Origin: Devosia sp. XK-2
Lineage (GTDB): Bacteria; Pseudomonadota; Alphaproteobacteria; Rhizobiales; Devosiaceae
Reading direction: 5' to 3'
Length of the DNA: 64,000 nucleotides
Assembly: GCF_037113415.1 (NCBI RefSeq)
Contig: NZ_CP146608.1
Coordinates: 1,632,501 to 1,696,500 of the forward strand
A model generated the notes under the pieces. That model did not search any database and was not told the origin of the DNA. It was given only the letters and a program-made list of their open reading frames with translations. Below are positions 47,735-62,057 of the stretch, piece by piece. The stretch's first letter is position 1; each line of letters opens with the position of its first letter. A program made the position numbers and the translations under genes.

Positions 47735-48070
47735 TTAGTGACTGATCATCCAGGGTCGAGCAGACGGGAAGCTTTTGGACCCGTCCGGTCGCACGAGCGT
47801 GGAGCGGCCTTTCTTGCCGCCTCCACTGCAGCATGAGCAGCCGGGGCCATGGGCCGAGCCGCCGCGTCTTGGTTCGTGACGTGCCTTTTCGTTGGTGGCA
47901 AAGGCAGAGCGGCGAGCGGCATCCATGCCGGCGATGAAGGGGACCGACAGGAAAGCCCGCGCAGCGGGCTCTCCACAAGCAGGGCAGGCGCAGGGCTCTG
48001 CCGATTGCGACATCGGCCGGACCTGGGAAAACGGTCCGCAACTGGTGCATTGATAATCGTAGATCGCCAC
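47735..48070 (-). CDS. fmdB: FmdB-family zinc-ribbon protein
   Basis: 111 aa. It starts MAIYDYQCTSCGPFSQV with a second C-x2-C (ACPACGEPA), the FmdB CXXC zinc ribbon. The tail has a GCSCCSGGG cysteine/glycine cluster. FmdB is a proposed regulator or accessory factor of formamidase in Methylophilus; its true role is unclear. It follows fmdA by 9 nt, as expected for an fmdAB pair. Confidence 0.9.
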   Translation of the reverse strand: MAIYDYQCTSCGPFSQVRPMSQSAEPCACPACGEPAARAFLSVPFIAGMDAARRSAFATNEKARHEPRRGGSAHGPGCSCCSGGGKKGRSTLVRPDGSKSFPSARPWMISH

Positions 48071-48079
48071 GGCCGTCTC

Positions 48080-49309
48080 CTAGAGGTCGAGCGCGATGGG
48101 CATATCGATGGATCCATCGAGGTGCTTTTTGGGTCCGTCCGAGCCGGGCATGATGTCGAACTCGAAAATGTCGGTGGGCAGCCAGAGCGTGGCGCAGGCA
48201 TTGGGGATGTCGACAACGCCTGAGACATGGCCCTGCACCGGCGCGGTGCCGAGAATGGAATAGGCCTGAGCGCCGGAATAGCCGAATTTCTTCAGATATT
48301 CGATGGCGTTGAGACAGGCCTGCCGATAGGCGGTGGTGACGTCCAGATAGTGCTGCGTGCCGCTCTCGTCGACTGAGATGCCCTCGAAGATCAGGTAGTC
48401 GTCATATTTCGGCGCAATCGGCGAGGGCCGGAAGATCGGGTTCTTGATCCCGTATTTGGCCATGCCACCCTTGATCAGGCTGACTTTGATATGGAGCCAG
48501 CCGGCCATTTCGATGGCGCCGCAAAAGGTGATTTCGCCGTCGCCCTGGCTGAAGTGCAGGTCGCCCATGGAAAGGCCGGCGCCGTCGACATAGACGGGGA
48601 AATAGACCTTTGAGCCGCGCGAAAGATCCTTGATGTCGCAATTGCCGCCATGTTCGCGCGGCGGCACCGTGCGGGCACCAGTGGCGGCGGCCTTTTCGAA
48701 ATCATCGCCCTTGAGCGCACCCATATGGGCCGCATTTGTGTCCGGCAGGGTGGCGAGCGCCGGCACGCGTTCGGGCTCGGTGTCGAACAGTTTCTTTTCG
48801 CGCGTGTTCCACATGTCGAGCATCTTGTGGTCGGGCAGGCACCCGATCAGTCCGGGATGGATGAGCCCGGCATATTTGACACCCGGCACGTGGCGGGACT
48901 GGGTGAACATACCCTTGAAATCCCAGATGGATTTCTGCGCGGAAGGGAAATGTTTATCGAGGAACCCGCCGCCATTATTGACCGAGAAAAAACCGTTGAA
49001 GCCCCAGAGCGAGTTTTCGAAAGCCCCGATATCGAGAATATCGACGACCAGGAGGTCGCCCGGCTCAGCGCCCTTGACGCCAATCGGACCGGACAGGAAA
49101 TGCACCTGCTTGAGATCGACATCGCGGACATCGGCAGCGTCGTCGTCATTTTTGATCTGGCCGCCGGTCCAGTCATAGGTCTCGATCTTGAAATCGTCTC
49201 CTGGCTCGACCCAACAGGCCATGGGGATATCGGGGTGCCAGCGATTGTGAATCTTTTCGTTGGTATAGGGGCTTTCGTTGAGATCGACCTTGATGAGGGT
49301 TTCGGTCAT
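48080..49309 (-). CDS. fmdA: Formamidase (acetamidase/formamidase family)
   Basis: 409 aa. It hydrolyses formamide or other short amides to ammonia and the acid. Family blocks RWHPDIPMACWVEPGDDF, HFLSGPIGVKGAEPGDLLVVDI, and PPREHGGNCDIKDL are present; the length is typical. ATG at MTETLIKV has GAGGA upstream; the longer ORF is not used. Placed 87 nt downstream of the ABC importer urtA-E and followed by fmdB, which suggests uptake and hydrolysis of amides as one unit. Confidence 0.94.
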   Translation of the reverse strand: MTETLIKVDLNESPYTNEKIHNRWHPDIPMACWVEPGDDFKIETYDWTGGQIKNDDDAADVRDVDLKQVHFLSGPIGVKGAEPGDLLVVDILDIGAFENSLWGFNGFFSVNNGGGFLDKHFPSAQKSIWDFKGMFTQSRHVPGVKYAGLIHPGLIGCLPDHKMLDMWNTREKKLFDTEPERVPALATLPDTNAAHMGALKGDDFEKAAATGARTVPPREHGGNCDIKDLSRGSKVYFPVYVDGAGLSMGDLHFSQGDGEITFCGAIEMAGWLHIKVSLIKGGMAKYGIKNPIFRPSPIAPKYDDYLIFEGISVDESGTQHYLDVTTAYRQACLNAIEYLKKFGYSGAQAYSILGTAPVQGHVSGVVDIPNACATLWLPTDIFEFDIMPGSDGPKKHLDGSIDMPIALDL

Positions 49310-49396
49310 TTGCGTATCCTCGTTGGCGTTGGAAACAGGGCGCTTCCAGCAAAAGTGGTCCCGGTTTGCGGTTCGGAAGCGTGACAAAAAGAAGAG

Positions 49397-50086
49397 CTAG
49401 ACGGAGAGAAAGGACGAGACCTTCACCTCGTCGATGCCGGCGCGAGGGCTTTCGTGGACGAACTCGCCGTTCTCGATAACCAGCACGCGATCAGCAATAT
49501 CGAGGGCGAAGCTCAGCACCTGTTCGGAGACGACGATGGACAGGCCCTTCTCGTCGCGAATGCGCCGCAACGTCCGGGCCATGTCCTTGATGATCGAGGG
49601 CTGGATGCCCTCCGTGGGCTCATCGAGCAGCAGCACTTTGGGCCGCGAGGCCAGCGCCCGGGCGATGGCGAGCTGCTGCTGCTGGCCGCCGGAGAGATTG
49701 CCCCCGCGACGGCCCTTCATTTCCAGCAGCACCGGAAAGAGTTCGTAGAGATCGCCCGGCACCTGGCTCTCGCCGGTAATGGTCAGGCCGGTCTCGATAT
49801 TCTCCTTCACCGTCATGGTGGAAAAGATCATGCGCCCCTGCGGCACATAGGACAGGCCGGACTCGACACGCCTGTAACTCTCGGCATGCTCCACCGCCTT
49901 GCCATCCACAAAGATAGTGCCGCTTCTCGATGGTACGATACCCATGAGCGATTTCATCAGCGTGGTCTTGCCCATGCCGTTGCGGCCCATAATGGCGACG
50001 ATTTCGCCGGGTGCCACATCCAGCGACACGCCATGGATGACTTCGCTCTGGCCGTAGGAGACGCGTAGATTGTCGATTGCGAGCAT
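49397..50086 (-). CDS. urtE: UrtE-type ABC transporter ATPase
   Basis: 229 aa. Walker A GRNGMGKTT, signature LSGGQQQQLAIARAL, Walker B VLLLDEPTEGIQPSI, the LivF/UrtE class. It powers import of urea or short amides with UrtD. Fifth gene of the urtABCDE set, 9 nt after urtD. The substrate may be amides (FmdDEF-like) because fmdA-fmdB follow. Confidence 0.92.
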   Translation of the reverse strand: MLAIDNLRVSYGQSEVIHGVSLDVAPGEIVAIMGRNGMGKTTLMKSLMGIVPSRSGTIFVDGKAVEHAESYRRVESGLSYVPQGRMIFSTMTVKENIETGLTITGESQVPGDLYELFPVLLEMKGRRGGNLSGGQQQQLAIARALASRPKVLLLDEPTEGIQPSIIKDMARTLRRIRDEKGLSIVVSEQVLSFALDIADRVLVIENGEFVHESPRAGIDEVKVSSFLSV

Positions 50087-50095
50087 GGTTGCCTC

Positions 50096-50857
50096 CTAGT
50101 GCCCGAGATAGACTTCGACGACCTTCGGGTCGTGCTGGACATGGTCCATCGTGCCCTCTGACAGCACCTTGCCCTGGTGCAGCACGGTGACCCGGTGGGC
50201 GATGTCTTCGACGAACTTCATGTCGTGCTCGATGACGATCACCGAGTGCTGCTTGATGATGGTGTTGAGCAGTTCGGCGGTCTTGACGCGCTCGCCCACG
50301 CTCATGCCGGCAACCGGCTCGTCCAGCATCAACAGGTCCGGCTTCTGGATCAGCAGCATGCCGATTTCGAGCCATTGCTTCTGGCCGTGGCTGAGAATGG
50401 CGGCCTCGGTCTCGAGATGATCCTTGAGGAAAATCATCTCGGCGATCTCCTCGATGCGCTCGATCACCGCGCGGTCGCGCCGGAACGCCAGAGCCCCCCA
50501 GACATTCTTGCCGCGTGGATAGGACAGTTCGAGATTTTCAAAGACCGTGAGGTCCTCGTAGATGGACGGGTTCTGGAACTTCCGGCCCACCCCGGCATGA
50601 ACAATCTGGTGTTCCTTCATCGTGGTCAGGTCCTTGCCGCGGAAGCGGATCGAGCCTGACGTGGCCTTGGTGCGGCCGCAAATGAGATCGAGCACCGTGG
50701 TCTTGCCGGCACCATTGGGGCCGATGATCACGCGAATTTCGTTCTCGTCGACATAGAAGGAGAGGTCGTTGACCGCCTTGAACCCATCGAAGGAGACGGT
50801 GAGCCCTTCCACGGCAAGCAGGAATTCCTTGGGTTCCGTTCTGGTATCGAAAGTCAT
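50096..50857 (-). CDS. urtD: UrtD-type ABC transporter ATPase
   Basis: 253 aa LivG/UrtD-class ATPase. Walker A IGPNGAGKTT, signature LSHGQKQWLEIGMLL (the LSHGQ variant with QWLEI is typical for UrtD), Walker B LLMLDEPVAGMS. It lies 10 nt after urtC and 9 nt before urtE. Confidence 0.93.
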   Translation of the reverse strand: MTFDTRTEPKEFLLAVEGLTVSFDGFKAVNDLSFYVDENEIRVIIGPNGAGKTTVLDLICGRTKATSGSIRFRGKDLTTMKEHQIVHAGVGRKFQNPSIYEDLTVFENLELSYPRGKNVWGALAFRRDRAVIERIEEIAEMIFLKDHLETEAAILSHGQKQWLEIGMLLIQKPDLLMLDEPVAGMSVGERVKTAELLNTIIKQHSVIVIEHDMKFVEDIAHRVTVLHQGKVLSEGTMDHVQHDPKVVEVYLGH

Positions 50858-50867
50858 CTCGGTTTTC

Positions 50868-52010
50868 CTATTCGGCAGCAGCTTCGGTGGGTGCCGGCGT
50901 AGGGGCAGGGCGCAGGCGCTTTGTCAGGCGCGGCAGCAGCGGCTCGATATGGCTCTTCCAGATCCCGGCAAGACCATTGGGGAAGGCCATGACCACGAGG
51001 ATGAACAGTCCGCCCATGGCGAAGAGCCAAAGTTCCGGGAAGCTCTCGGAGAAGCTGGTCTTGGCGTAGTTGACCAGCAGCGCGCCATAGACTGCGCCGA
51101 AGATCGAGAGCCGTCCGCCCACAGCGCAGAAGATGACCATTTCGATCGAGGGCACGATGCCCACGAACGAGGGCGACATGAACCCCACCTGCAACGCGAA
51201 CATGGCGCCGCCGATGGCCGAGAAAGCCGCGGCCAGGCAGAAGACGAAGATCTTGAAATTGGCGACGTCATAGCCGGAGAAGCGGACGCGATCTTCCTTG
51301 TCGCGCATGGCGATCAGCAGGCGACCAAATTTGGAGCGCTTGACGAAGAGGGCGAGGAGGATGACCCCGAGAAGCAGGACGGCATTGACGAAATAAAGGA
51401 TCAGCTTGGCGCTGTCGGTGCGGATGTCCCAGCCGAGCAGGGTCCGCAGATCGGTCATGCCGTTGATGCCGCCTGTATAACCCTGCTGCCCAACGATTAG
51501 GATGGTGAGGATGGCGGCAACCGCCTGAGTGATGATGGCGAAATACACCCCGCCCACCCGGCGTTTGAACATGGCCGCGCCGATAATGTAGGCGAAGACC
51601 GTGGGCACAACGAGGATTAGGAGCATGGCCAGCGGGAAGGACTTGAACGGCATCCACCACCAAGGCAACTCAGTTACCTGGTTCCAGTCCATGAAGTCGG
51701 GAATGCCGGGCGTGGACTGGATAGCCGTGTTTTCCGGCGATGAGGCCTCGAGCTTCAGGAACATTGCCATGCAGTAGCCGCCCAGGCCAAAGAAGATGCC
51801 CTGGCCCAGGCTCAGAATGCCGCCAAAGCCCCAGCAGAGCACGAGCCCCACGGCAACAAAGGCATAGGTGAGATATTTGCCGGCCAGGTTGAGGCGGAAG
51901 ATGTCGAGCGCCAGCGGAAAGATGGCCAGGATGAGTATCGCCAGAATGATGAAGGCGACGGCGTCCTTGTCGAGCAATGTCCGTGATGTGGCAGGGGTCG
52001 CTGCAGACAT
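50868..52010 (-). CDS. urtC: UrtC-type ABC transporter permease
   Basis: 380 aa LivM-class membrane protein with about 10 predicted helices; GFGGILSLGQGIFFGLGGYCMAMF is the LivM/UrtC signature. The C-terminus is Pro/Ala/Glu-rich. The start MSAATPATSR has AGGAG 8 nt upstream; the frame is open much further upstream through urtB, but that part is a shadow of urtB. 14 nt after urtB. Confidence 0.92.
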   Translation of the reverse strand: MSAATPATSRTLLDKDAVAFIILAILILAIFPLALDIFRLNLAGKYLTYAFVAVGLVLCWGFGGILSLGQGIFFGLGGYCMAMFLKLEASSPENTAIQSTPGIPDFMDWNQVTELPWWWMPFKSFPLAMLLILVVPTVFAYIIGAAMFKRRVGGVYFAIITQAVAAILTILIVGQQGYTGGINGMTDLRTLLGWDIRTDSAKLILYFVNAVLLLGVILLALFVKRSKFGRLLIAMRDKEDRVRFSGYDVANFKIFVFCLAAAFSAIGGAMFALQVGFMSPSFVGIVPSIEMVIFCAVGGRLSIFGAVYGALLVNYAKTSFSESFPELWLFAMGGLFILVVMAFPNGLAGIWKSHIEPLLPRLTKRLRPAPTPAPTEAAAE

Positions 52011-52024
52011 GAAACCGGCTCCTT

Positions 52025-52951
52025 TCAGCGGCGGATCTTGAGGGTGAACAGACCCTGCGGGCGCAGCATCAGGATGCCGACGACGGTGAGCAGGGTGAGA
52101 ACCTTGGCCATCGAACCGGACATGAAGAATTCCATGGTCGATTGCGCCTGGCTGATGGTGAAGGCCGATGCGATGGTACCGATGAGGCTGCCCGCGCCGC
52201 CAAAGACAACGACCAGGAAGGTATCGACGATATAGAGCTGACCGGCCGTGGGACCGGTCGAGCCGATCATGGTGAAGGCGGACCCGGCGACGCCGGCAAT
52301 GCCGCAGCCCAGGCCGAAGGTCATGCGGTCGACCATCTTGGTATTGATGCCCACCGCGCCGGCCATGACACGGTTCTGCGTCACGGCGCGCACCTGCTTG
52401 CCCCAGCGCGACCTGTACATGAGCGCCGCCACGGCGATGGCAATGAGCGTGGTCAGAGCCATAACGAAGAGACCATTGATCGGCACTTCGATGATATCGG
52501 TCAGCGGCAGCGAGCCCATCATCCAGTCGGGCAGGGTGACACCCACTTCGCGGGCGCCGAACACCGAGCGATAGGTTTGCTGCAGAATGAGGCTGAGGCC
52601 CCAGGTGGCCAGGAGCGTGTCGAGCGGCCGCCGGTAAAGGTGCCGGATCATTGCCCATTCAACGATCACCCCCAGCGTGAAACTGGCGCAAAAGGCCAAA
52701 GCCATGGCGATGAAGAAATAAATGGGAAAGAGCGCCGGGGCGAAATTGGTGACGAACAGACTGACGCCCCAGGTGACATAGGCCCCCAGGATCATGAATT
52801 CGCCATGGGCCATGTTGATGACGCCCATCTGGCCGAAAATGATGGCCAGGCCGAGGGCCATGAGCACAAAGACGGAAAACAGGATCAGCCCGGCGAAGCC
52901 CTGCATCGCCAGGATCGAAAAGAACTGATCATATGTATAGTCGCCGATCAT
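52025..52951 (-). CDS. urtB: UrtB-type ABC transporter permease
   Basis: 308 aa LivH-class permease with about 8 helices; MGVINMAHGEFMILGAY is the LivH/UrtB signature and FGGAGSLIGTIASAF the EAA-like loop. Pairs with UrtC in the inner membrane. Separated from urtA by a 79-bp gap with a hairpin. Confidence 0.93.
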   Translation of the reverse strand: MIGDYTYDQFFSILAMQGFAGLILFSVFVLMALGLAIIFGQMGVINMAHGEFMILGAYVTWGVSLFVTNFAPALFPIYFFIAMALAFCASFTLGVIVEWAMIRHLYRRPLDTLLATWGLSLILQQTYRSVFGAREVGVTLPDWMMGSLPLTDIIEVPINGLFVMALTTLIAIAVAALMYRSRWGKQVRAVTQNRVMAGAVGINTKMVDRMTFGLGCGIAGVAGSAFTMIGSTGPTAGQLYIVDTFLVVVFGGAGSLIGTIASAFTISQAQSTMEFFMSGSMAKVLTLLTVVGILMLRPQGLFTLKIRR

Positions 52952-53030: not shown

Positions 53031-54296
53031 TTATTGGTAACCTTCCGGGAACGGATCTGGCTCCATCAGGTCGGCGGTCTCATAGACCACGTCATATTGA
53101 CCATCGGCGCGGGCGTGGCCGATACGCAGCTTGCTCCACAGATGATGGTTCTCGTGGATTTTGACATAGCCTTCGGGCGCAGTGCCGAGCTCGATACCGG
53201 GCGAAGCCTCGCGCACCTTGTTGATGTCGAAACTGCCGGCCTTTTCGACGGCGGCCTTCCACAGCCACGGCCCGAGATAGGCAGCCTGGGTCACGTCGCC
53301 GATAACGATGCCATCGCCCCAGCGCGCCTTGAACGCCTCGACAAAGGCCTTGTTGTTGTCGTTCTCGATCGACTGGAAATATTTCATGGCCGCATAGGCG
53401 CCCACGATATTCTCGCCGCCGATGCCCAGGATTTCGTCCTCCGTCACCGAGATGGTGAGCAGGAGCGGGGATTCCTCGGTGAGGTCGATGCCGGCGGCCT
53501 TGAGCTGCTTGTAAAAGGCCACATTGGAGCCGCCCACCACGATGGCGTAGATCACGTCGGGCTTGGTCAGCTTGATCTTGTTGATGACCGAATTGAACTG
53601 GGTATGTTCGAGCGGGTAATATTCCTCGCCGACGACCTTGAGCCCCTTCATCTCGATATGCTTGCGGGCGATCTTGTTTGACGTCCGGGGCCAGATGTAG
53701 TCCGAACCGAGCAGGTAGAAGCTCTTGGCACCCTTGGTGTCGACCACCCAATCGATACCGGCGAGAATCTGCTGGGTTGCTTCCTGGCCGGTATAGATGA
53801 CGTTGGGGCTCTCCTCGAGGCCTTCATAGAAAGTCGGGTAGTAGAGCATGCCATTATACTGCTCGAAGACCGGCAGGACGGCTTTGCGCGAAGCCGAGGT
53901 CCAGCAGCCCATCACAGAGGCGACCTTGTCCTGCACCAGCAGCTTCTTGGCCTTTTCCGCGAAGGTCGGCCAATCGGAAGCGCCATCTTCCTGGATATAT
54001 TTGATCTGGCGACCGAGCACGCCGCCGGCGGCGTTGATCTGCTCGATGGCCAGGATTTCGGCCTGCACCGAGCCGGTCTCGGAAATAGCCATGGTGCCGG
54101 TGACCGAATGGAGGATACCGACGGTGACTTCGGTATCGGTGACGGCAAGACCCGTCGTATTGACGGCAGCGGTGGAGGTGTCCTGAGCGAAGACGCGGCC
54201 GCCGCCGAGCATGCCCAGTGCCGGAATGGTTGCCATGGCCGCGAGCAGCTTGCGGCGGTTGATTTTGAAGGGGCCGTCGCCCGAAAAGTCAGTCAT
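53031..54296 (-). CDS. urtA: Urea/short-chain amide ABC transporter substrate-binding protein
   Basis: 421 aa. The N-terminus NRRKLLAAMATIPALGMLGG carries a twin-arginine (Tat) signal pattern rather than a plain Sec signal. The mature part is a LivK-type periplasmic binding protein of the UrtA/FmdD branch (TVGILHSVTGTMAISETG, YLLGSDYIWPRTSNKIAR, GEEYYPLEHTQF, ILTISVTEDEI-like). It delivers urea, formamide or acetamide to UrtBC. First gene of urtABCDE-fmdAB, divergent from the transporter-kinase gene. Confidence 0.93.
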   Translation of the reverse strand: MTDFSGDGPFKINRRKLLAAMATIPALGMLGGGRVFAQDTSTAAVNTTGLAVTDTEVTVGILHSVTGTMAISETGSVQAEILAIEQINAAGGVLGRQIKYIQEDGASDWPTFAEKAKKLLVQDKVASVMGCWTSASRKAVLPVFEQYNGMLYYPTFYEGLEESPNVIYTGQEATQQILAGIDWVVDTKGAKSFYLLGSDYIWPRTSNKIARKHIEMKGLKVVGEEYYPLEHTQFNSVINKIKLTKPDVIYAIVVGGSNVAFYKQLKAAGIDLTEESPLLLTISVTEDEILGIGGENIVGAYAAMKYFQSIENDNNKAFVEAFKARWGDGIVIGDVTQAAYLGPWLWKAAVEKAGSFDINKVREASPGIELGTAPEGYVKIHENHHLWSKLRIGHARADGQYDVVYETADLMEPDPFPEGYQ

Positions 54297-54535
54297 TGTT
54301 TTGCCCTGTCCTTGATTGCCTGGCTGAGGCGGGAGGAACGCGCCTGCAACTGATCAAGGATTGGGCATTTTTGCGTCGTGCCTCTCAACGGGGCATTTGA
54401 CGTATTCATATCGGGATTTTTCCCACATATTGTCCGTCATATGGCGGGGACGATCAGTCCCATGCCGTGTCCGACTGCGCCGCAAAGCGGCTGGCAATAG
54501 GGCATGGGAGCGTATAGGGCGAACCGGGACGGGTG
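54297..54535. promoter_or_regulatory. Divergent control region between urtA and the NCS1 sensor kinase
   Basis: 239 bp that must hold both promoters. Visible: a GGGA-TTTT-TCCC hairpin at 54413-54424 and a repeated GGGCATTT string at 54363 and 54393. No -24/-12 sigma-54 promoter could be recognised. This is the likely binding region of the LuxR-type regulator encoded at 57694. Confidence 0.4.
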
Positions 54536-57500
54536 ATGAGGGCAGAGGCGAAGGTTACGCGTGTCAGGCGCACCTATAACAAATGGGTGGCTAACCAGAC
54601 ACTTGAGGATTTCGCGCTTCGCTTCACCGCGCATAAGGTTCGGCGCTGGTCTCCGGCGCGTATCGCCAATACCGCGATTGGTGCCGCCTCCTTCCTGGCG
54701 CTGGAGGCCATCGGTGGCGCGCTAACCCTGAGCTACGGCTTTTCGGCCACGGCCTGGGCCGTGCTCTCGACCTGCATCATCATCTTCCTGATGGGCGTTC
54801 CCATCGTCTACAACGCGGCCAAATATGGCGTGGATATCGACCTGCTGACCCGCGGGGCCGGCTTTGGCTATATCGGTTCGACCATCACATCGCTCGTCTA
54901 TGCCAGCTTCACCTTCATCTTCTTTGCCATCGAAGCGGCGATCATGGCGACTGCGCTGGAGCTATGCTTCGGACTGCCCCTGCCCATCGGATATCTGGTC
55001 AGTGCCCTCATGGTCATTCCCCTGGTGACCTATGGCATCACCCTGATCAACCGCTTCCAGACCTGGACGCAACCCTTCTGGCTGGTCTTGCAGATCATTC
55101 CATTCGTCTTCATCGGGGCCCAGAGCATGCCGGCCGTGCGGGAATGGACCGGCTATACCGGCGTCATGGGCGCCGTGGACGGCGGTTTCAGCCTGGGCCT
55201 GTTCGGCGCGGCCTCGGCCGTCATGTTCTCGCTGGTCGCCCAGATCGGTGAGCAGGTGGACTATCTGCGCTTTCTGCCCCGCACCGGCCACAAGAGCCGT
55301 TTTGCCTGGTGGCTGGCTCTGATCGGCGCGGGCCCGGGCTGGATCGTCATTGGCGGTCTCAAGGTCATGGCCGGCTCGTTCCTCGCCTATTACGCCTTCC
55401 GCCACGGCGTCGACTTCTCCAGCGCTTCCGAGCCAACGCAGATGTATCTGGTCGTCTTCGGACAAATGCTGCAAAGCCCCGAACTCGCCCTGGCCGCCAC
55501 AGGCATTTTCGTGGTCGTCTGTCAGCTCAAGATCAATGTAACCAATACCTATGCCGGCTCGATTGCCTGGTCGAACTTCTTTTCCCGTCTGACCCACAGC
55601 CATCCCGGACGGGTTGTCTGGGTGGTGTTCAACGTGCTGATCGGCCTCATCCTGATGGAGTTCGGCATCTATAAGGCGCTCGAGCAAATCCTGGGACTCT
55701 ATGCCATCCTGGCCATTGCCTGGCTGGCGGCTATCGTCTCCGACCTCATCATCTGCAAACCGCTCGGCCTGTCGCCGCGCCATATCGAGTTCAAGCGAGC
55801 CCATCTATACGACATCAACCCGGTCGGCTTTGGCGCCATGCTCATCGCAGTGGCCCTTTCGCTATTGTCCTATCTCGGGATTTTCGGGGAGATCGCGGAG
55901 GCGCTTTATTCCTATGTGGCACTGGTGACGGCACTGGTCTGCGTGCCGCTCATCGCCATTGCGACGCGCGGCCGCTACTATATCGCCCGCAGCTCCGAAC
56001 TTCCCCATAGCCATGGCGAGGCCATTCGCTGTCGTGTTTGCGAGCACAGTTTCGAGCCCGAGGACATGGCCGGCTGTCCGGTCTATGGCGGGCCGATCTG
56101 TTCGCTCTGCTGCTCGCTCGATGCGAGATGTGGCGATCGCTGCAAGACCGATGCCCGCCTCGGCGACCAGCTCTCCGGCGTCGTCACCAAAATGCTGCCG
56201 GAGTCGATTGCCACGGCGCTCAACACGCGGCTGGGGCATTATCTCGGGCTCATGCTGATCGTCGGCGGTTTGATGGCGGCTATTTTGATGGTCTTCAACT
56301 ATCAGGCGACGCTGGATGGGCATTCGGCGCGCGCGGCTATCGATGCCACGCTGGGCAAGATCTTCGTTGTCTTTTTCATCATCGCGGGCATTATCGTTTG
56401 GCTCTTCGTGCTCAACCACGAAAGCCGCGAATTTGCCGAGGAGGAGGCGCGGCGGCATACCGCACTGCTGATCGAGGAAATCGAGGCGCACCAGGAAACC
56501 GACCGCAAGCTGCAGGCGGCCAAGGAGGCGGCGGAATCCGCCAATCTGGCCAAGTCCCGCTACGTGACCGGCCTCAGCCACGAATTGCGCTCGCCGCTCA
56601 ATTCCATTCTGGGCTATGCGCAATTGCTCGAGCGCCAGCGCGCCGAACACCCGATGGTCGGCCGGGCGGCACGCACAATCCTGCGCTCAGGCGAGCATCT
56701 GTCCGGTCTCATCGAGGGCTTGCTCGACATTTCCAAGATCGAAGCGGGCAAGCTCCACCTCTATCGCGACAAGACGGCGCTGGCGGCCAATATCAATCAA
56801 CTGGTCGAAATGTTCTCGCTGCAGGCGCGGGAGAAAGGGATCGACTTCGTCTTCGACCAGGCAACGCCGCTGCCGGAATATGTCTTCACCGACGAAAAGC
56901 GCCTGCGCCAGATCCTGATCAATCTCATCTCCAATGCCATCAAATTCACCGATTCCGGCACCGTTACGCTGCGCCTGAGCTATCGCAACCAGATCGCCTC
57001 ATTCGAGGTGATCGATACCGGTTCGGGCATTCCGCCCGACGAGCTGGACCGCATCTTCCTGCCGTTCCAGCGCGGCACCAGGCCTGCCGGCGCAGAGCCG
57101 CAACCTGGCACGGGACTGGGGCTGACCATCACCAAGCTTCTGGTCGAGATCATGGGCGGCGAGTTGACCGTGGCCAGCACGCCCGGGCAGGGGACCCAAT
57201 TCACCGTGCGCATCCTGCTCTCTTCGACCTGGATGCCCGACGAACCCAAGCACTCCACGGTGCGGATCACCGGTTATTACGGCCCCCGCCAGTCTATCCT
57301 GGTCGCCGATGACGACCCGGCGCAGCGTGAATTGCTCTCCGATCTCCTGGGCGGGCTCGGTTTCGACGTGGCGACGGTCAAGGACGGGGTCGAATGCCTG
57401 CAGTCGATCCGCCGCCAGCGGCCAAGCCTGCTTATCCTCGATGTCGCTATGCCACGGCGCAATGGTTGGCAGGTGGCCCAGAAGGTGAGAGGCGACAGGC

Positions 57501-57697
57501 TGCCCATCATCATGATCTCGGCCGATGCCGGAAGCGAACGGCTCCGACCCGATTATGGGGCGCTCTACGATGGCTACCTAATCAAGCCGTTCAAGGTAGA
57601 CGACCTCGTCCAACAGATCGGCTCCGCGCTCGGCCTGCTCTGGATCGAGGATGACGCGCCCATGGATTCGTCAGCCCAGGAGACCGCACTGTCATGA
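54536..57697 (+). CDS. NCS1 permease-histidine kinase-receiver fusion (transporter-type sensor)
   Basis: 1053 aa. Residues about 30-480 form a 12-helix NCS1 (cytosine/purine/allantoin permease) domain. A cysteine-rich segment follows (C499, C502, C514, C522, C525, C526, C532, C536; core [12 protein letters not shown]). Two further membrane helices (about 560-630) lead into a coiled coil and kinase: H-box [14 protein letters not shown] with H682, N-box [18 protein letters not shown] and GTGLGL. A C-terminal receiver has D969 ([14 protein letters not shown]). The layout parallels CbrA-type solute-transporter sensors but with NCS1 instead of SLC5. ATG at 54536 is preferred over GTG at 54533. Divergent from the amide importer, so it probably senses a nitrogen compound. 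Confidence 0.92.
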
Positions 57698-58596
57698 TGT
57701 CGAGCGAACCGGCCAAAGTTCTCATCGTCGATGACCAGCCCGACACGCTGACCATGCTGACGGATGCGCTGGACCTCGAAGGCATGGCGACCAGCCATGC
57801 CTCCAGCGGCCAGACAGCCCTGTCGATGATCGCGCAGACGCCGCCGGACATTGTCCTGCTCGATGCCATGATGCCGGGCATGGACGGGTTCGAGACCTGC
57901 CAGGTGCTCAAGAGCGAGATGGGGCTGACCGATCTGCCGGTCATCTTCATGACGGGCCGCAATGACAGTGACCATGTCGTGCGGGCGCTGGCATGCGGCG
58001 GGGTGGATTTCGTCTCCAAGCCGATCGTGCTCACCGAGCTCTTTGCGCGCATGCGGGTGCATCTGAGCAATTCGCGCAAGACCCGATCGGCGCGGGATGC
58101 GCTCGATTCCATCGGCCGCCGGATTGTCGCCGTGCATCCGCAGGCGGGCATCGTCTGGGCCACGCCGCAGGCGCAGGACCTTTTGTCCCGTATCGGGCTC
58201 AGGCCGGAGGAGGGCTCCACATTGCCCTGGGAGCTCAAGCAGTGGGTGGCCGATGATACTGGCGCCGACGGCAATGTCCGGCTCTACCGCCGGTTTGACC
58301 GCGAGGTCGAGTTCCGCATCATGGAGCGCCGCGCCGACGGGACGATCCTTCTCCGCATCATCGACTGCGCCGCTGGCACCGGCGAGCAGCGCCTTGCGGC
58401 GGCGTTCGGCATCAGCCTGCGCGAGGCGGAGGTGCTGCTGTGGCTTACGCATGGCAAGTCCAACAAGGAAATTGCCGCGATCCTTCAGCTCTCTCCCCGC
58501 ACCATCAATAAGCATCTCGAACAGATATTTGAGAAGCTAGGCATCGAAAACCGCACAGCCGCGGCCACGATGTCGGTGCGGGTGTTGTGGGACTGA
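57694..58596 (+). CDS. Response regulator, receiver + LuxR-type helix-turn-helix
   Basis: 300 aa. Receiver domain about 8-120 with the acidic pair DDQ and phospho-acceptor Asp in VLLDAMMPGMDGF; a middle linker of about 110 residues with a degenerate PAS-like look; a C-terminal GerE/LuxR HTH (LREAEVLLWLTHGKSNKEIA, LSPRTINKHLEQIFEKLG). Its ATG overlaps the kinase stop (ATGA), so it is the cognate output partner. Most likely targets: the urt-fmd operon and its own promoter. Confidence 0.93.
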   Translation: MMSSEPAKVLIVDDQPDTLTMLTDALDLEGMATSHASSGQTALSMIAQTPPDIVLLDAMMPGMDGFETCQVLKSEMGLTDLPVIFMTGRNDSDHVVRALACGGVDFVSKPIVLTELFARMRVHLSNSRKTRSARDALDSIGRRIVAVHPQAGIVWATPQAQDLLSRIGLRPEEGSTLPWELKQWVADDTGADGNVRLYRRFDREVEFRIMERRADGTILLRIIDCAAGTGEQRLAAAFGISLREAEVLLWLTHGKSNKEIAAILQLSPRTINKHLEQIFEKLGIENRTAAATMSVRVLWD

Positions 58597-58657: not shown

Positions 58658-59653
58658 TTATGGCTCAACGCCTAACAGGCGGTTGGTAAAGTAACCCGAG
58701 AAGTCGGGCTTTTCCGCCACGACCACGCCATTTCCGTCCTTGAGCAGCCCGGCGCCGAAAAGAAAATTGCCCATCGCGTCCATCTTTTCCGGGTCGATGA
58801 CGCCGATCGTGCCGTCCTCGGCGCGAAGATAGTGACCATCGATCAGCGCCTGGAGTGAGGCCCGCACAAAGTCGCGGTCGAGCAGGGTATCCGCATTGGC
58901 CGCGACCAGAATGTCAGTGGCTTCGTCCGGATGTTCGACGGCATAGGCATAGCCGCGCCGGCTGGCCGAAATGAAGGCGCCGGCCGTGTCGGCGTGCTCG
59001 GCAAGATAGGCATCGGTGGTACCAAGAAAGTTGGTGTGCTGGTCGGGAACGCCATAATCGGCGTAGCGGAAGGCGCGCTGCGCCGGACCATCGCGCTCTG
59101 CCTTTATACCTTCCCAGGTATAGACTTCGAGGGTGAAATCGACGGCGCCATTGGCCAGTGCCTCATAGGCCGATGTGCCAAGGGTCACGGTTTCGAACGT
59201 GCCGTCCCCGCCATCCTGCCTGATAATGGTGCCGATCAGCGCCGTCTCCCAGCCGCTGCCGAAGCCGGCATAGATTTTTCCGTCCAGATCTCGGGGTGTC
59301 TGAATGTCGTCTCGATCGGCCTTGAACACCAGCCGCCCGGTCTCGGTTTGCACCAGCGCATAGGTCGCGACCAGATCAGCGCCGGCTGTGCGTTGGGTGA
59401 ACAGGCCGATAGAGCCCAGAATGCCGAAATCGGCCACGTGGTTGGCAACCAGCGTGGCTGCGGAGGTGTCCGTATAGGGCAGGATTTCGAGCTCGATGCC
59501 GGCCTCCTGGTAAAACCCTTTCGCCTGAGCGACGAATAGGCCGATGTGATTGGTGTTGGGCGTCCAGTCGAGCGCCACGCTTACCGGCTCGGCCAGGACC
59601 GGGCTGGCGCTCAAGGCGGCCATAAATATCAGGGAAGCGCGAAAATGCGACAT
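58658..59653 (-). CDS. thiY: NMT1/THI5-like (ThiY-type) substrate-binding protein
   Basis: 331 aa with a Sec signal ending ASPVLA. The mature start VSVALDWTPNTNHIGLFVAQAKGFYQEAGIELEI is the ThiY/THI5 signature for binding of thiamine pyrimidine precursors (FAMP/HMP). ATG at 59653 has AGAGGA at proper spacing; ATG at 59659 overlaps the upstream stop. Last gene of ykoF-permease-ATPase-SBP behind a TPP riboswitch. Confidence 0.88.
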   Translation of the reverse strand: MSHFRASLIFMAALSASPVLAEPVSVALDWTPNTNHIGLFVAQAKGFYQEAGIELEILPYTDTSAATLVANHVADFGILGSIGLFTQRTAGADLVATYALVQTETGRLVFKADRDDIQTPRDLDGKIYAGFGSGWETALIGTIIRQDGGDGTFETVTLGTSAYEALANGAVDFTLEVYTWEGIKAERDGPAQRAFRYADYGVPDQHTNFLGTTDAYLAEHADTAGAFISASRRGYAYAVEHPDEATDILVAANADTLLDRDFVRASLQALIDGHYLRAEDGTIGVIDPEKMDAMGNFLFGAGLLKDGNGVVVAEKPDFSGYFTNRLLGVEP

Positions 59654-59655
59654 GA

Positions 59656-60405
59656 TCATTCCTCTAGTGTGAGCAGGGTTTGCAGGATTTCGGCCTCTAT
59701 CGCGGAGAGAGCCTTGTCGCCCGCGGCGGGACGTGGATGAGGCAGCGGGATATCGTAATGGCGCGATATTCTGGCCGGGCGTGGCGAGAGCACATAGACC
59801 CGGTCGGACAGGAAAACCGCCTCGCGCACATCGTGGGTGATCAGCAGCACGGTCCAGTCGTGATGCACGCGCATGCTTGCAAGCCAGCGTTGCATCCTGG
59901 TCCTCGTTAGCGCGTCCAGGGCGCCGAATGGTTCATCGAGCAGCAACATGGACCTTTGCTGGGCCACCGTGCGCAGCAAAGCCACACGCTGGCGCATCCC
60001 GCCCGAGAGCTGGGACGGATAATGCCGCTCGAAGCCCGACAGGCCGAACTCAGCAAACAGGGGCAGGGCCCTTTCGCGGGCCGCCGCCCGGCTCATGCCC
60101 TGCACTTCAAGACCGAGCGTGGCGTTGTCGATGATGCGACGCCAGGGCATCAGCGCATCACGTTGCGGCATGAAGGCAAAGCGATGGCTATTCGCTTCGA
60201 GCGGGGCGCCGGCACATAGAATATCGCCGCCATCATGTCGAAGCGCGCCGGTCAATAGCTGCAATATGGTGGATTTGCCGGCCCCTGACGGCCCCAGGAT
60301 GGACACGAATTCGCCTGGGTGAACCGAAAGGCTGATGTCGGCCAGCACGGCGAGTTGATCGAAGCTCTTCGAGACGGATCTGAGTTCCAGTCGCGGCACG
60401 CTCAT
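59656..60405 (-). CDS. thiZ: ABC transporter ATPase, ThiZ-type
   Basis: 249 aa of the nitrate/taurine/ThiZ branch. Walker A LGPSGAGKSTILQL, Q-loop FMPQRDALMPWRR, signature LSGGMRQRVALLRT, Walker B MLLLDEPFGALD. The start MSVPRLELRSV overlaps the permease stop (ATGA); a longer upstream frame is not used. Powers uptake of the ThiY ligand. Confidence 0.9.
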   Translation of the reverse strand: MSVPRLELRSVSKSFDQLAVLADISLSVHPGEFVSILGPSGAGKSTILQLLTGALRHDGGDILCAGAPLEANSHRFAFMPQRDALMPWRRIIDNATLGLEVQGMSRAAARERALPLFAEFGLSGFERHYPSQLSGGMRQRVALLRTVAQQRSMLLLDEPFGALDALTRTRMQRWLASMRVHHDWTVLLITHDVREAVFLSDRVYVLSPRPARISRHYDIPLPHPRPAAGDKALSAIEAEILQTLLTLEE

Positions 60406-61196
60406 CGCTCGCGCGCCCCCAATCGCGCCCAGGGCATGGCCAGTCGTTGCAGCAGGACTGTTGTACCGAAAAGGCAAAGGGTGAGCGCTGCGCTGACAAA
60501 GACCGCGGCCAGGACCAGGTCCGGCCGGAAATTGTTCTTGGCGTTGAGGATATAGATGCCCAGGCCCCGGACGGCGCCTGCATATTCGGCGAAGATCGCC
60601 CCGACCACGGCATAGGTGATCGATATCCTGAGCCCGGCGAAGAAATAGGGCAGGGCGGACGGCAAACGAGCAGCCATGAAGATGCGCCAGCGCGACGCGC
60701 CCATGGAAGCAAGAAGCGACTCTATATCGCGATCGGTCGAGTCATAGCCCTGCACCAGGGCGACCAGCATGGGAAAAAACGTCACCAGCGCGACCAGCAC
60801 GATCTTGGGCATCAGACCGAAGCCGAACCAGAGCACCACAAGGGGCGCGATCGCCACCAGCGGCAGGGTCTGGGTGATGACCAGGACTGGGAACACGGCC
60901 CGCTGCAGTGGACGAAAGAAGTCCAGCAGCAGCGAGAACAGGAAGGCGGCGCCGAGCGAACAGGAAAAGCCGAACAGGGTGGCTTGCAGCGTCGCCAGCG
61001 TGTGGAGGGCCAGTGCCTCGCGCTGCTGGTAACCCTGAACGAGCACGCGCGACGGCGCCGACAGGGCCGTAGGAGAGATGCCCGACTGCCGGACATATAA
61101 TTCCCAGGCGAGAAAGAGGGCCGAGACGGACAGAACCGCCGGCCAGGCATGGGCAAACAGGCGGGCAACGCCCGACCAGGCTGAACGTATCGACAT
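60402..61196 (-). CDS. thiX: ABC transporter permease, ThiX-type
   Basis: 264 aa with about six helices and the cytoplasmic EAA-type loop (SLLASMGASRWRIFMAARLPSALP split around residues 165-190). It belongs to the SsuC/TauC/ThiX permease branch. Lies 14 nt after ykoF and overlaps the ATPase. Confidence 0.9.
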   Translation of the reverse strand: MSIRSAWSGVARLFAHAWPAVLSVSALFLAWELYVRQSGISPTALSAPSRVLVQGYQQREALALHTLATLQATLFGFSCSLGAAFLFSLLLDFFRPLQRAVFPVLVITQTLPLVAIAPLVVLWFGFGLMPKIVLVALVTFFPMLVALVQGYDSTDRDIESLLASMGASRWRIFMAARLPSALPYFFAGLRISITYAVVGAIFAEYAGAVRGLGIYILNAKNNFRPDLVLAAVFVSAALTLCLFGTTVLLQRLAMPWARLGARER

Positions 61197-61210
61197 GACG
61201 ACGCTCCGGC

Positions 61211-61819
61211 CTAGCGCGCGCTTGGGCTATTGGCCGATACGGTCAGATCGATGGTAACATGCCCTTCAGGCGGCCCGAAGCGGCAGAATGCCTGCTCCAG
61301 AGTGGCAAAAAGGGCGCCGGTATCGCCGCTGAGCTTGGTTGCGAAATGCTTTGACGCCTCGAATGTGCCCGAGGCCTTGAGAAAGTCGATGCAGCCGTAA
61401 ATCTCGTCCATGTGCCGGTCTTGGCCCATGACATAGAGCGAGAACTGCGCCACCGAGAAGACATCTGTCTCCGGCGCGCTGGAGACCGCAGCCAGGGCGC
61501 TTTCCTGCCGCTCGGCCAGTGGCAACATCGGCCCCGCCAAGTGCTGCGACTGGCAAATGGCATCGTCGGGCTCGCCCGGGCACCCGCGCGAGATGGCAGC
61601 CGAGAGAACGCTGTGCACACCGGTCCGGGCGGCGGCTGTAAAAACGTCGCGCAGCGCCGGAAACAGCAGTTCGGGCGGACCGACCAGCAATGTGGATATA
61701 TCGTCAGTCTCGATGCGCAGACGATCCCGATAGGGATCGAGCGCCTTCAATGCGCTCATGATGACAGCGACGAAATCGCCGGTCATGGGATAAAGGGAAA
61801 TTTGCGCGCCAGAAAACAT
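61211..61819 (-). CDS. ykoF: YkoF-family thiamine/HMP-binding protein
   Basis: 202 aa with two tandem repeats: AQISLYPMTGDFVAVIMSAL near the start and AQFSLYVMGQDRHMDEIYGC in the middle, the YkoF signature. Bacillus YkoF binds the pyrimidine moiety of thiamine. First gene downstream of a TPP riboswitch and followed by a ThiXZY-type importer, so it probably handles the imported precursor in the cytoplasm. Confidence 0.9.
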   Translation of the reverse strand: MFSGAQISLYPMTGDFVAVIMSALKALDPYRDRLRIETDDISTLLVGPPELLFPALRDVFTAAARTGVHSVLSAAISRGCPGEPDDAICQSQHLAGPMLPLAERQESALAAVSSAPETDVFSVAQFSLYVMGQDRHMDEIYGCIDFLKASGTFEASKHFATKLSGDTGALFATLEQAFCRFGPPEGHVTIDLTVSANSPSAR

Positions 61820-61824
61820 GAACC

Positions 61825-61916
61825 GCCTCGCTCCGCTGGTATTACCCAGATCAGCTTTAGGGTCCGAAGGCTTGCCGCCCCCATCTCAGCCCCGACCGTA
61901 CGGAGCACCCCTGTGG
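61825..61916 (-). ncRNA. TPP (THI-box) riboswitch
   Basis: Read on the minus strand, the leader shows ACAGGGGTGC, then GGGGCTGAGAT, then ACCC-TAAAG-CTGATCTGGGTAA followed by TACCAGCGGAG. These are the conserved THI-box pieces: the CUGAGA bulge and the CUGAUCUGG-UAAU-CCAGCG thiamine-sensing stretch. The aptamer ends about 6 nt before the ykoF ATG and carries the GGAGCGAGG ribosome site at its 3' edge, so TPP probably blocks translation initiation. Confidence 0.95.
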
Positions 61917-62057
61917 ATGGCGCGGACCATAGACGACATCGATGAGCTTTCGCAACCCTCCTCGGCTCTCGGAAAAATCCCAATAGCTGCCAGCGGGGCC
62001 GTTCCGCCAATATGGGCGCACGAAGACCGTTCATCGCAACATGCAGGCAGGCACCGA

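Follow-up and report, generated by a model that had tools for sequence, protein, structure and literature searches.

The characterized transporter-fused kinases that we found are based on SLC5 or Amt domains, and such kinases are called rare in the accessible portion of a preprint on CbrA (PMC13022988). In the SLC5/STAC kinases CbrA, CrbS, and RpuS, the histidine kinase carries a transporter-fold domain of at least 12 helices. The partner of CrbS is a regulator of the LuxR type, which depends on an inverted repeat, the ACTU motif, upstream of its targets, as described in excerpts of PMC5715377. The ammonium sensor kinase of Kuenenia likewise combines a nitrogen-compound transporter domain, Amt, with a histidine kinase (PMC5764959, in part). 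For amide utilization, the fmdCABDEF genes of Methylophilus methylotrophus encode a formamidase and an amide/urea ABC importer and are induced by formamide and urea; FmdB is termed a putative positive regulator in that work, the available part of which mentions no transporter-kinase (PMC10781810). A urt-amiF cluster called 'UTS' on a plasmid of Klebsiella pneumoniae CG307 has been discussed as a urinary-tract fitness factor with a regulator absent from the account; in the available text there are 0 occurrences of 'histidine kinase' or 'two-component', and the sensor is unmentioned (PMC13060141). The available portion of PMC13296017 mentions, with no function given, a two-component pair next to urtABCDE genes.

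The sensor described here, encoded in Devosia sp. XK-2, resembles the SLC5/STAC kinases in carrying a transporter-fold domain of at least 12 helices on a histidine kinase, but it has an NCS1-like membrane domain, an eight-cysteine linker, apparently in place of the STAC domain described for them, and urt, fmd, or urease genes as putative targets. It differs from the Kuenenia Amt kinase in its unrelated membrane fold and in its ligand, which is ammonium in the latter (PMC5764959, in part). In a literature search that covered a minority of subscription journals, no paper was found on an NCS1-fused kinase or on a kinase or regulator of urt-fmd genes. Transporter-fused kinases as such are already known (SLC5/STAC, Amt); an NCS1-based one is new within the literature covered and, if confirmed, would be a third transporter fold turned into a receptor.

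Organization of the Sensor Locus

The analyzed window is a stretch of 64,000 nucleotides that spans bases 1632501-1696500 of a 3.80-Mb genome assembled as a single contig. It contains the following features.

47735..48070, minus strand: fmdB-like gene for a zinc-ribbon protein (Pfam search)
48080..49387, minus strand: fmdA, formamidase (Pfam and NCBIfam above cut-off)
49397..50086, minus strand: urtE, ATPase (NCBIfam above cut-off)
50096..50857, minus strand: urtD, ATPase (NCBIfam above cut-off)
50868..52010, minus strand: urtC, permease (NCBIfam above cut-off; ATG at 52010, the mechanical ORF extends to 52658)
52025..52951, minus strand: urtB, permease (Pfam and NCBIfam above cut-off)
53031..54296, minus strand: urtA, binding protein of the amide/urea importer (Pfam and NCBIfam above cut-off)
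54536..57697, plus strand: fusion of an NCS1-type permease and a hybrid histidine kinase, 1053 residues (ORF, Pfam, relatives)
54608..55990, plus strand: predicted NCS1-fold membrane domain, residues 25-485 (structure model and profile comparison)
56030..56143, plus strand: eight-cysteine linker, Cys 499, 502, 514, 522, 525, 526, 532, and 536 (alignment)
56228..56542, plus strand: two extra helices, residues ~565-594 and 596-669 (model of moderate confidence, pTM 0.41)
56549..57220, plus strand: histidine kinase, HisKA 672-738 with phospho-acceptor His682 and HATPase_c 785-895 (Pfam)
57296..57619, plus strand: receiver domain, residues 921-1028 with Asp969 (Pfam)
57694..58596, plus strand: partner response regulator with receiver and LuxR-type HTH, 300 residues (Pfam)

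The sensor gene is a single unbroken frame of 1053 residues on the plus strand, with an alternative GTG start at 54533. Its kinase half carries the HisKA histidine, the HATPase boxes, and the receiver aspartate of a hybrid histidine kinase (Pfam and alignment). The start of the regulator gene (57694) overlaps the kinase stop (57697) by 4 nt, and its product combines a receiver with a LuxR HTH domain (Pfam), as in NarL/LuxR-type response regulators. Both genes are divergent from urtABCDE-fmdAB. A sequence-only reading of the window had proposed this domain order, from NCS1 domain through Cys-rich linker and two helices to kinase and receiver, as well as the placement opposite urtABCDE-fmdAB with a coupled LuxR-type regulator, and both are borne out by the ORF, Pfam, NCBIfam, profile, and model evidence.

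The same reading had left room for an error of assembly or frame. Such an artefact, or a chance fusion, was ruled out, since the host genome encodes a paralogue of 53% identity with the same architecture and a fused frame of at least 1026 residues is present in 131 of the 135 fetched loci. The 1901-residue frame in one relative (L230) was dismissed as a longer protein, its upstream frame being merely open. The paralogue (host genome ~2316544-2319921; locus L009, 10544-13921) has its own regulator and is divergent from another urtABCDE cluster, with ureC ~4 kb further on. Shorter sensors that have no receiver were found beside fmdA, with no linked amide-type urtA, at L153 7662-10346 and L154 8498-11155; the next gene there encodes a receiver and a second kinase in place of the LuxR-type regulator. 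On the other side of the window sensor, genes for an NMT1/THI5-like ABC transporter and a YKOF-family protein adjoin at 58658-61922 on the minus strand, and a TPP riboswitch ahead of them (61810-61922, 57 bits) marks them as an operon for thiamine-precursor uptake.

Predicted Remote NCS1 Fold of the Membrane Domain

Direct searches gave no NCS1 assignment. Residues 1-655 have no match to the NCS1 family PF02133 even at E<=10, none of 40 aligned relatives matches it at E<=1, and PF02133 matches are absent altogether from the host genome and from 20 relatives. A PDB sequence search returned no match for the window protein or for the sensor profile. Profile and structure comparisons were therefore used. 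In hhalign, the 40-row sensor alignment matched a profile of 23 PF02133 proteins at 98.6% (E 5.6e-16) over 384 columns; this profile was made from 23 of 30 loci, the other 7 having been left out because the frame picked in them was non-hydrophobic. The AlphaFold2 model of the membrane domain (pLDDT 75.8, pTM 0.81) had Mhp1 as its top PDB match in Foldseek (E 2e-8), and re-alignment of the model gave Z scores of 27.0 for CodB and 24.9 for Mhp1, followed by 21.4 for the next fold family.

The window protein also has no Pfam match to SLC5 (solute:sodium symporters) at E<=10, and NCS1 chains rank above SLC5 chains in the structural comparison of the predicted model. The contrast with the SLC5 module of CbrA-type sensors drawn in the sequence-only reading is thus upheld. 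Based on these comparisons, we concluded that the membrane domain is a remote branch of NCS1 with the predicted NCS1 version of the LeuT fold. It is like Mhp1 and CodB in fold and in profile-level sequence similarity, and unlike them in having no Pfam match, a Lys/Ile pair in place of the sodium-site Ser312/Thr313, and a fused kinase. The nearest free-standing relative found is a 497-residue NCS1 permease (L120, 1948-5167; PF02133 E 3.6e-9) that belongs to the same branch, also matches the sensor profile, has Arg at the position of sensor Lys332, and adjoins a carbon-nitrogen hydrolase gene.

Linkage to Formamidase and Urease Genes

The survey of NCS1-kinase fusions suggested with the initial reading was carried out on 135 loci, collected from a GTDB genome scan (80), from 299 evenly sampled Pseudomonadota genomes (34), and from the genome, genus, and order of the host (21). 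Loci were called amide-linked when they held fmdA or an amide-type urtA, and urea-linked when they held a urea-type urtA or ureC. By this measure, 105 of the 135 sensor loci are amide-linked, 27 are urea-linked, and 3 are neither, two of these being on short contigs (L030, L155) and one not (L057). No urt or fmd gene lies within reach of the sensor in L057, L242, and L246. Matches to the sensor profile at E<=0.001 were obtained in 40 of the 299 genomes, including one with a free-standing permease (G214), which was removed before the Fisher test, and one with a fragment (G256). FmdA occurs in 31 of the 299, and 30 of these 31 also carry the sensor, the exception being G134; the Fisher p value for this co-occurrence, 4e-32, is uncorrected for the kinship of the genomes.

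On a sensor-domain tree of 69 rows, chosen by hand from 136 plus an outgroup, at least 4 changes between amide and urea linkage were counted, suggesting that the same receptor has been re-paired repeatedly with formamidase or urease. Urea-linked and amide-linked members have different residues at three positions of the sensor, 323, 270, and 231, with Ala323 in 17 of 19 urea-linked but 2 of 48 amide-linked tree rows. As determinants of ligand specificity these residues are a lead only, no sign test reaching 0.05 with 3 independent pairs.

Taken with the palindrome described below, linkage and co-occurrence strongly support a role of the sensor and its LuxR-type partner in the control of amide use, as had been proposed at the outset. 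That the sensor is found again and again beside genes for formamidase, urease, and urea/amide importers indicates a signal among short amides or urea, rather than a nucleobase, allantoin, or hydantoin. The gene neighborhood in itself fits ligand sensing and nitrogen-status sensing alike.

Predicted Ligand Pocket and Sodium Site

Pocket residues were mapped through a chain of alignments from the sensor to an NCS1 protein and from there to Mhp1. The Mhp1 residues Ser312/Thr313, which we take to be part of the sodium site, pair with Lys332/Ile333 of the sensor, and Mhp1 Gln121, Trp117, Gln42, and Asn318, presumably substrate-binding residues, pair with Glu133, Phe129, Phe53, and Asn337, respectively. 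For the helix of Lys332, the alignment with CodB is also gap-free and agrees with the Mhp1 pairing. Lys332, Ile333, Glu133, Phe53, and Asn337 are invariant in 132 of 132 labelled loci, as are the charged residues E57, E133, E239, and K332 of the NCS1 domain, while the position aligned to Trp117 is Phe or Leu across the sensor relatives. With Lys332/Ile333 in all 132 labelled loci, an Mhp1-like sodium site is, by this alignment chain, not retained. Among other LeuT-fold carriers, ApcT and CaiT have a positive charge where the sodium would be. The invariant lysine at the Mhp1 sodium-site serine, together with this precedent, suggests that the sensor domain is probably sodium-independent, and the domain may be either a receptor that does not transport or a carrier that works independently of sodium.

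The part of the sequence-only reading that named transport as a possible signal in itself calls for correction in view of the invariant Lys332. A sensor that also transports, importing amide or urea by a proton-coupled or facilitated route with turnover setting the kinase, seems a less likely though conceivable alternative. Lys332 and Ile333 at the positions of Mhp1 Ser312/Thr313 argue against it, and so does the dedicated ABC importer already encoded next to the sensor. In its favor, the predicted permease fold is full-length and the free-standing relative L120, a PF02133 member, lies beside a carbon-nitrogen hydrolase gene. The model would follow the one proposed for CbrA and histidine, this SLC5-kinase being reported to transport histidine in the available portions of PMC7096432 and PMC13022988.

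The NCS1 assignment of the sequence-only reading stands, but the gene pairings described above speak against a ligand from the cytosine/allantoin/hydantoin class to which it referred the module. A classical NCS1 ligand such as cytosine, uracil, allantoin, or hydantoin could in principle act as a precursor signal whose breakdown gives urea or formamide. Such a role would agree with the NCS1 fold itself and with the hydantoinase-like or ureohydrolase-like genes near the sensor in some loci (L245, L247). We consider it very improbable, as the sensor is constantly accompanied by urtABCDE and a formamidase or urease rather than by nucleobase pathways, and the positions of Mhp1 Trp117, Gln121, and Gln42 are occupied by Phe/Leu, Glu, and Phe.

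Domain Conservation and Predicted Coupling to the Kinase

Mean identity to the window protein was 64.6% for the NCS1 domain, 72.7% for the Cys core, 58.9% for the kinase, and 40.2% for the receiver. By this measure no other large domain of the sensor is as well conserved as the membrane domain, and its margin over the kinase suggests stronger constraint on the membrane domain. Each of the eight linker cysteines is present in 134 of the 135 loci, with one gap, and so is the phospho-acceptor histidine of the kinase. The cytoplasmic eight-Cys linker probably binds a metal. The linker, comprising the Cys8 cluster and the two helices, gave no Foldseek match at E<=0.001 (best E 0.84), and its model, of moderate confidence, has only a weak beta-beta-helix look.

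The invariant cysteines (134 of 135 loci) could also be read as the actual sensory element, with the kinase responding to metal or redox state at the linker, or to nitrogen status, and with the NCS1 domain reduced to a degenerate anchor. A mere anchor should drift, which is at odds with an NCS1 domain that is better conserved than the kinase and retains invariant E57, E133, E239, and K332; moreover, the linkage tracks amide and urea genes, not metal or redox genes. We therefore regard this possibility as improbable and favor a sensory role of the NCS1 domain. In a separate model of moderate confidence, the second extra helix leads into the kinase, and the last membrane helix runs unbroken to residue 669, just ahead of HisKA, which suggests a mechanical coupling of membrane domain and kinase. 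In most relatives, such as L009, the receiver is followed by an extension of ~70 residues; the window protein and those closest to it (for example L010 and L012) are without it. The Devosia sp. Root685 protein (L010) is 90% identical to the window protein in the sensor part.

Operator-like Palindrome

In 124 of the 135 loci, urtA is divergent from the sensor within 900 bp, and 54 representative urtA-sensor regions were picked by hand from this intergenic set by tree position. The palindrome TACGTC-N4-GACGTA, with at most 1 mismatch, occurs in 27 of the 54 regions versus ~0.04 expected from shuffles. Sites of a wider form, TACGY-N6-RCGTA, are present in 37 of the 54 versus 0.04 expected, a count that is no independent test because this relaxed spacing was worded after the 54 regions had been viewed. 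Closer to independent are the sites upstream of fmdA, the plasmid loci, and the genome-wide count, the last with the reservation that the paralogue's site was among the 54. The remaining 1.09 Mb of these loci contain 5 sites of the wider form, all 5 of them 24-101 bp from the FmdA match start and in loci with a separate region upstream of fmdA. In the 3.8-Mb host genome the wider form occurs once, as TACGTC-N4-GACGTA between the paralogue and its urtABCDE, compared to 22 occurrences of the reversed-pattern control. Of 12 plasmid loci outside the derivation of the palindrome, 10 have a match: between urtA and the sensor in six (L232, L234, L241, L244, L245, L249), before a distant urtA in L233, before the sensor in L242, before fmdA in L243, and at an unassigned place in L247. 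No match was found in L246 and L248.

Even the relaxed palindrome is absent from 11 of the 54 representative regions, among them the clade of the window, whose own urtA-sensor intergenic region has no TACGY-N6-RCGTA site. All 19 aligned regions of this clade share an element of 20-22 bp that ends in ACGTAT and holds a single half-site, represented in the window by the following feature.

54386..54407, plus strand: clade-specific conserved element CAACGGGGCATTTGACGTATTC between urtA and the kinase gene, a candidate degenerate regulator site with one half-site kept

A scan for sigma-70 promoters in the urtA-kinase intergenic region found none. Since the palindrome is common in relatives and the window clade keeps one half-site, an operator role is strongly supported in the family as a whole and less so at the sensor gene of the window.

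Proposed Mechanism of Amide and Urea Sensing

Considering the observed architecture, linkage, co-occurrence, and conserved palindrome together with the predicted NCS1 fold, we regard it as quite probable that the sensor is an NCS1-derived receptor kinase for short amides or urea that activates urt-fmd. The NCS1-fold (LeuT-fold) half would serve as a receptor ('transceptor') for short amides, namely formamide and perhaps acetamide, and for urea in paralogues. A ligand that binds in the NCS1 pocket, or is turned over through it, would change the conformation of the domain. This change would be relayed by the eight-Cys linker, which probably carries a metal, and by the helix that leads from the last membrane helix to the kinase, and would switch the kinase. 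Phosphate might then move to the C-terminal receiver, to the LuxR-type regulator encoded by the overlapping gene, or to both. The regulator would bind the inverted repeat in the divergent promoter region (TACGY-N6-RCGTA in most relatives) and activate urtABCDE-fmdAB and probably its own operon too. By analogy, the co-induction in M. methylotrophus and the CrbS regulator with its inverted repeat fit this mechanism.

A broader version, to which we give somewhat less credence but still find fairly probable, is that NCS1-fold kinases that have lost the sodium site form a hitherto undescribed class of dedicated urea/short-amide receptors, spread through Alpha-, Beta-, and Gammaproteobacteria and onto Klebsiella plasmids. 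The class would have a regulator and a palindromic operator of its own, by which urt-fmd and urt-urease regulons are defined, and the choice between amide and urea ligands would have shifted several times. If so, the two paralogues in one genome, with formamidase and urease partners, would allow ligand choice and signal passage to be compared.

A likely regulator of formamide and urea use would also be named, including for the Klebsiella plasmid cluster. On K. pneumoniae plasmid MG764551.1 (L232), a sensor and regulator of the window type are divergent from urtABCDE-amiF, a gene order that sets a sensor beside a cluster like the 'UTS' genes of CG307. The partner formamidase there is annotated as AmiF, not FmdA, and the two are unrelated enzyme families according to the available part of PMC10781810. 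Klebsiella accounts for 338 of the 506 plasmid records that match the sensor, which public annotation mostly lists as 'ATP-binding protein'.
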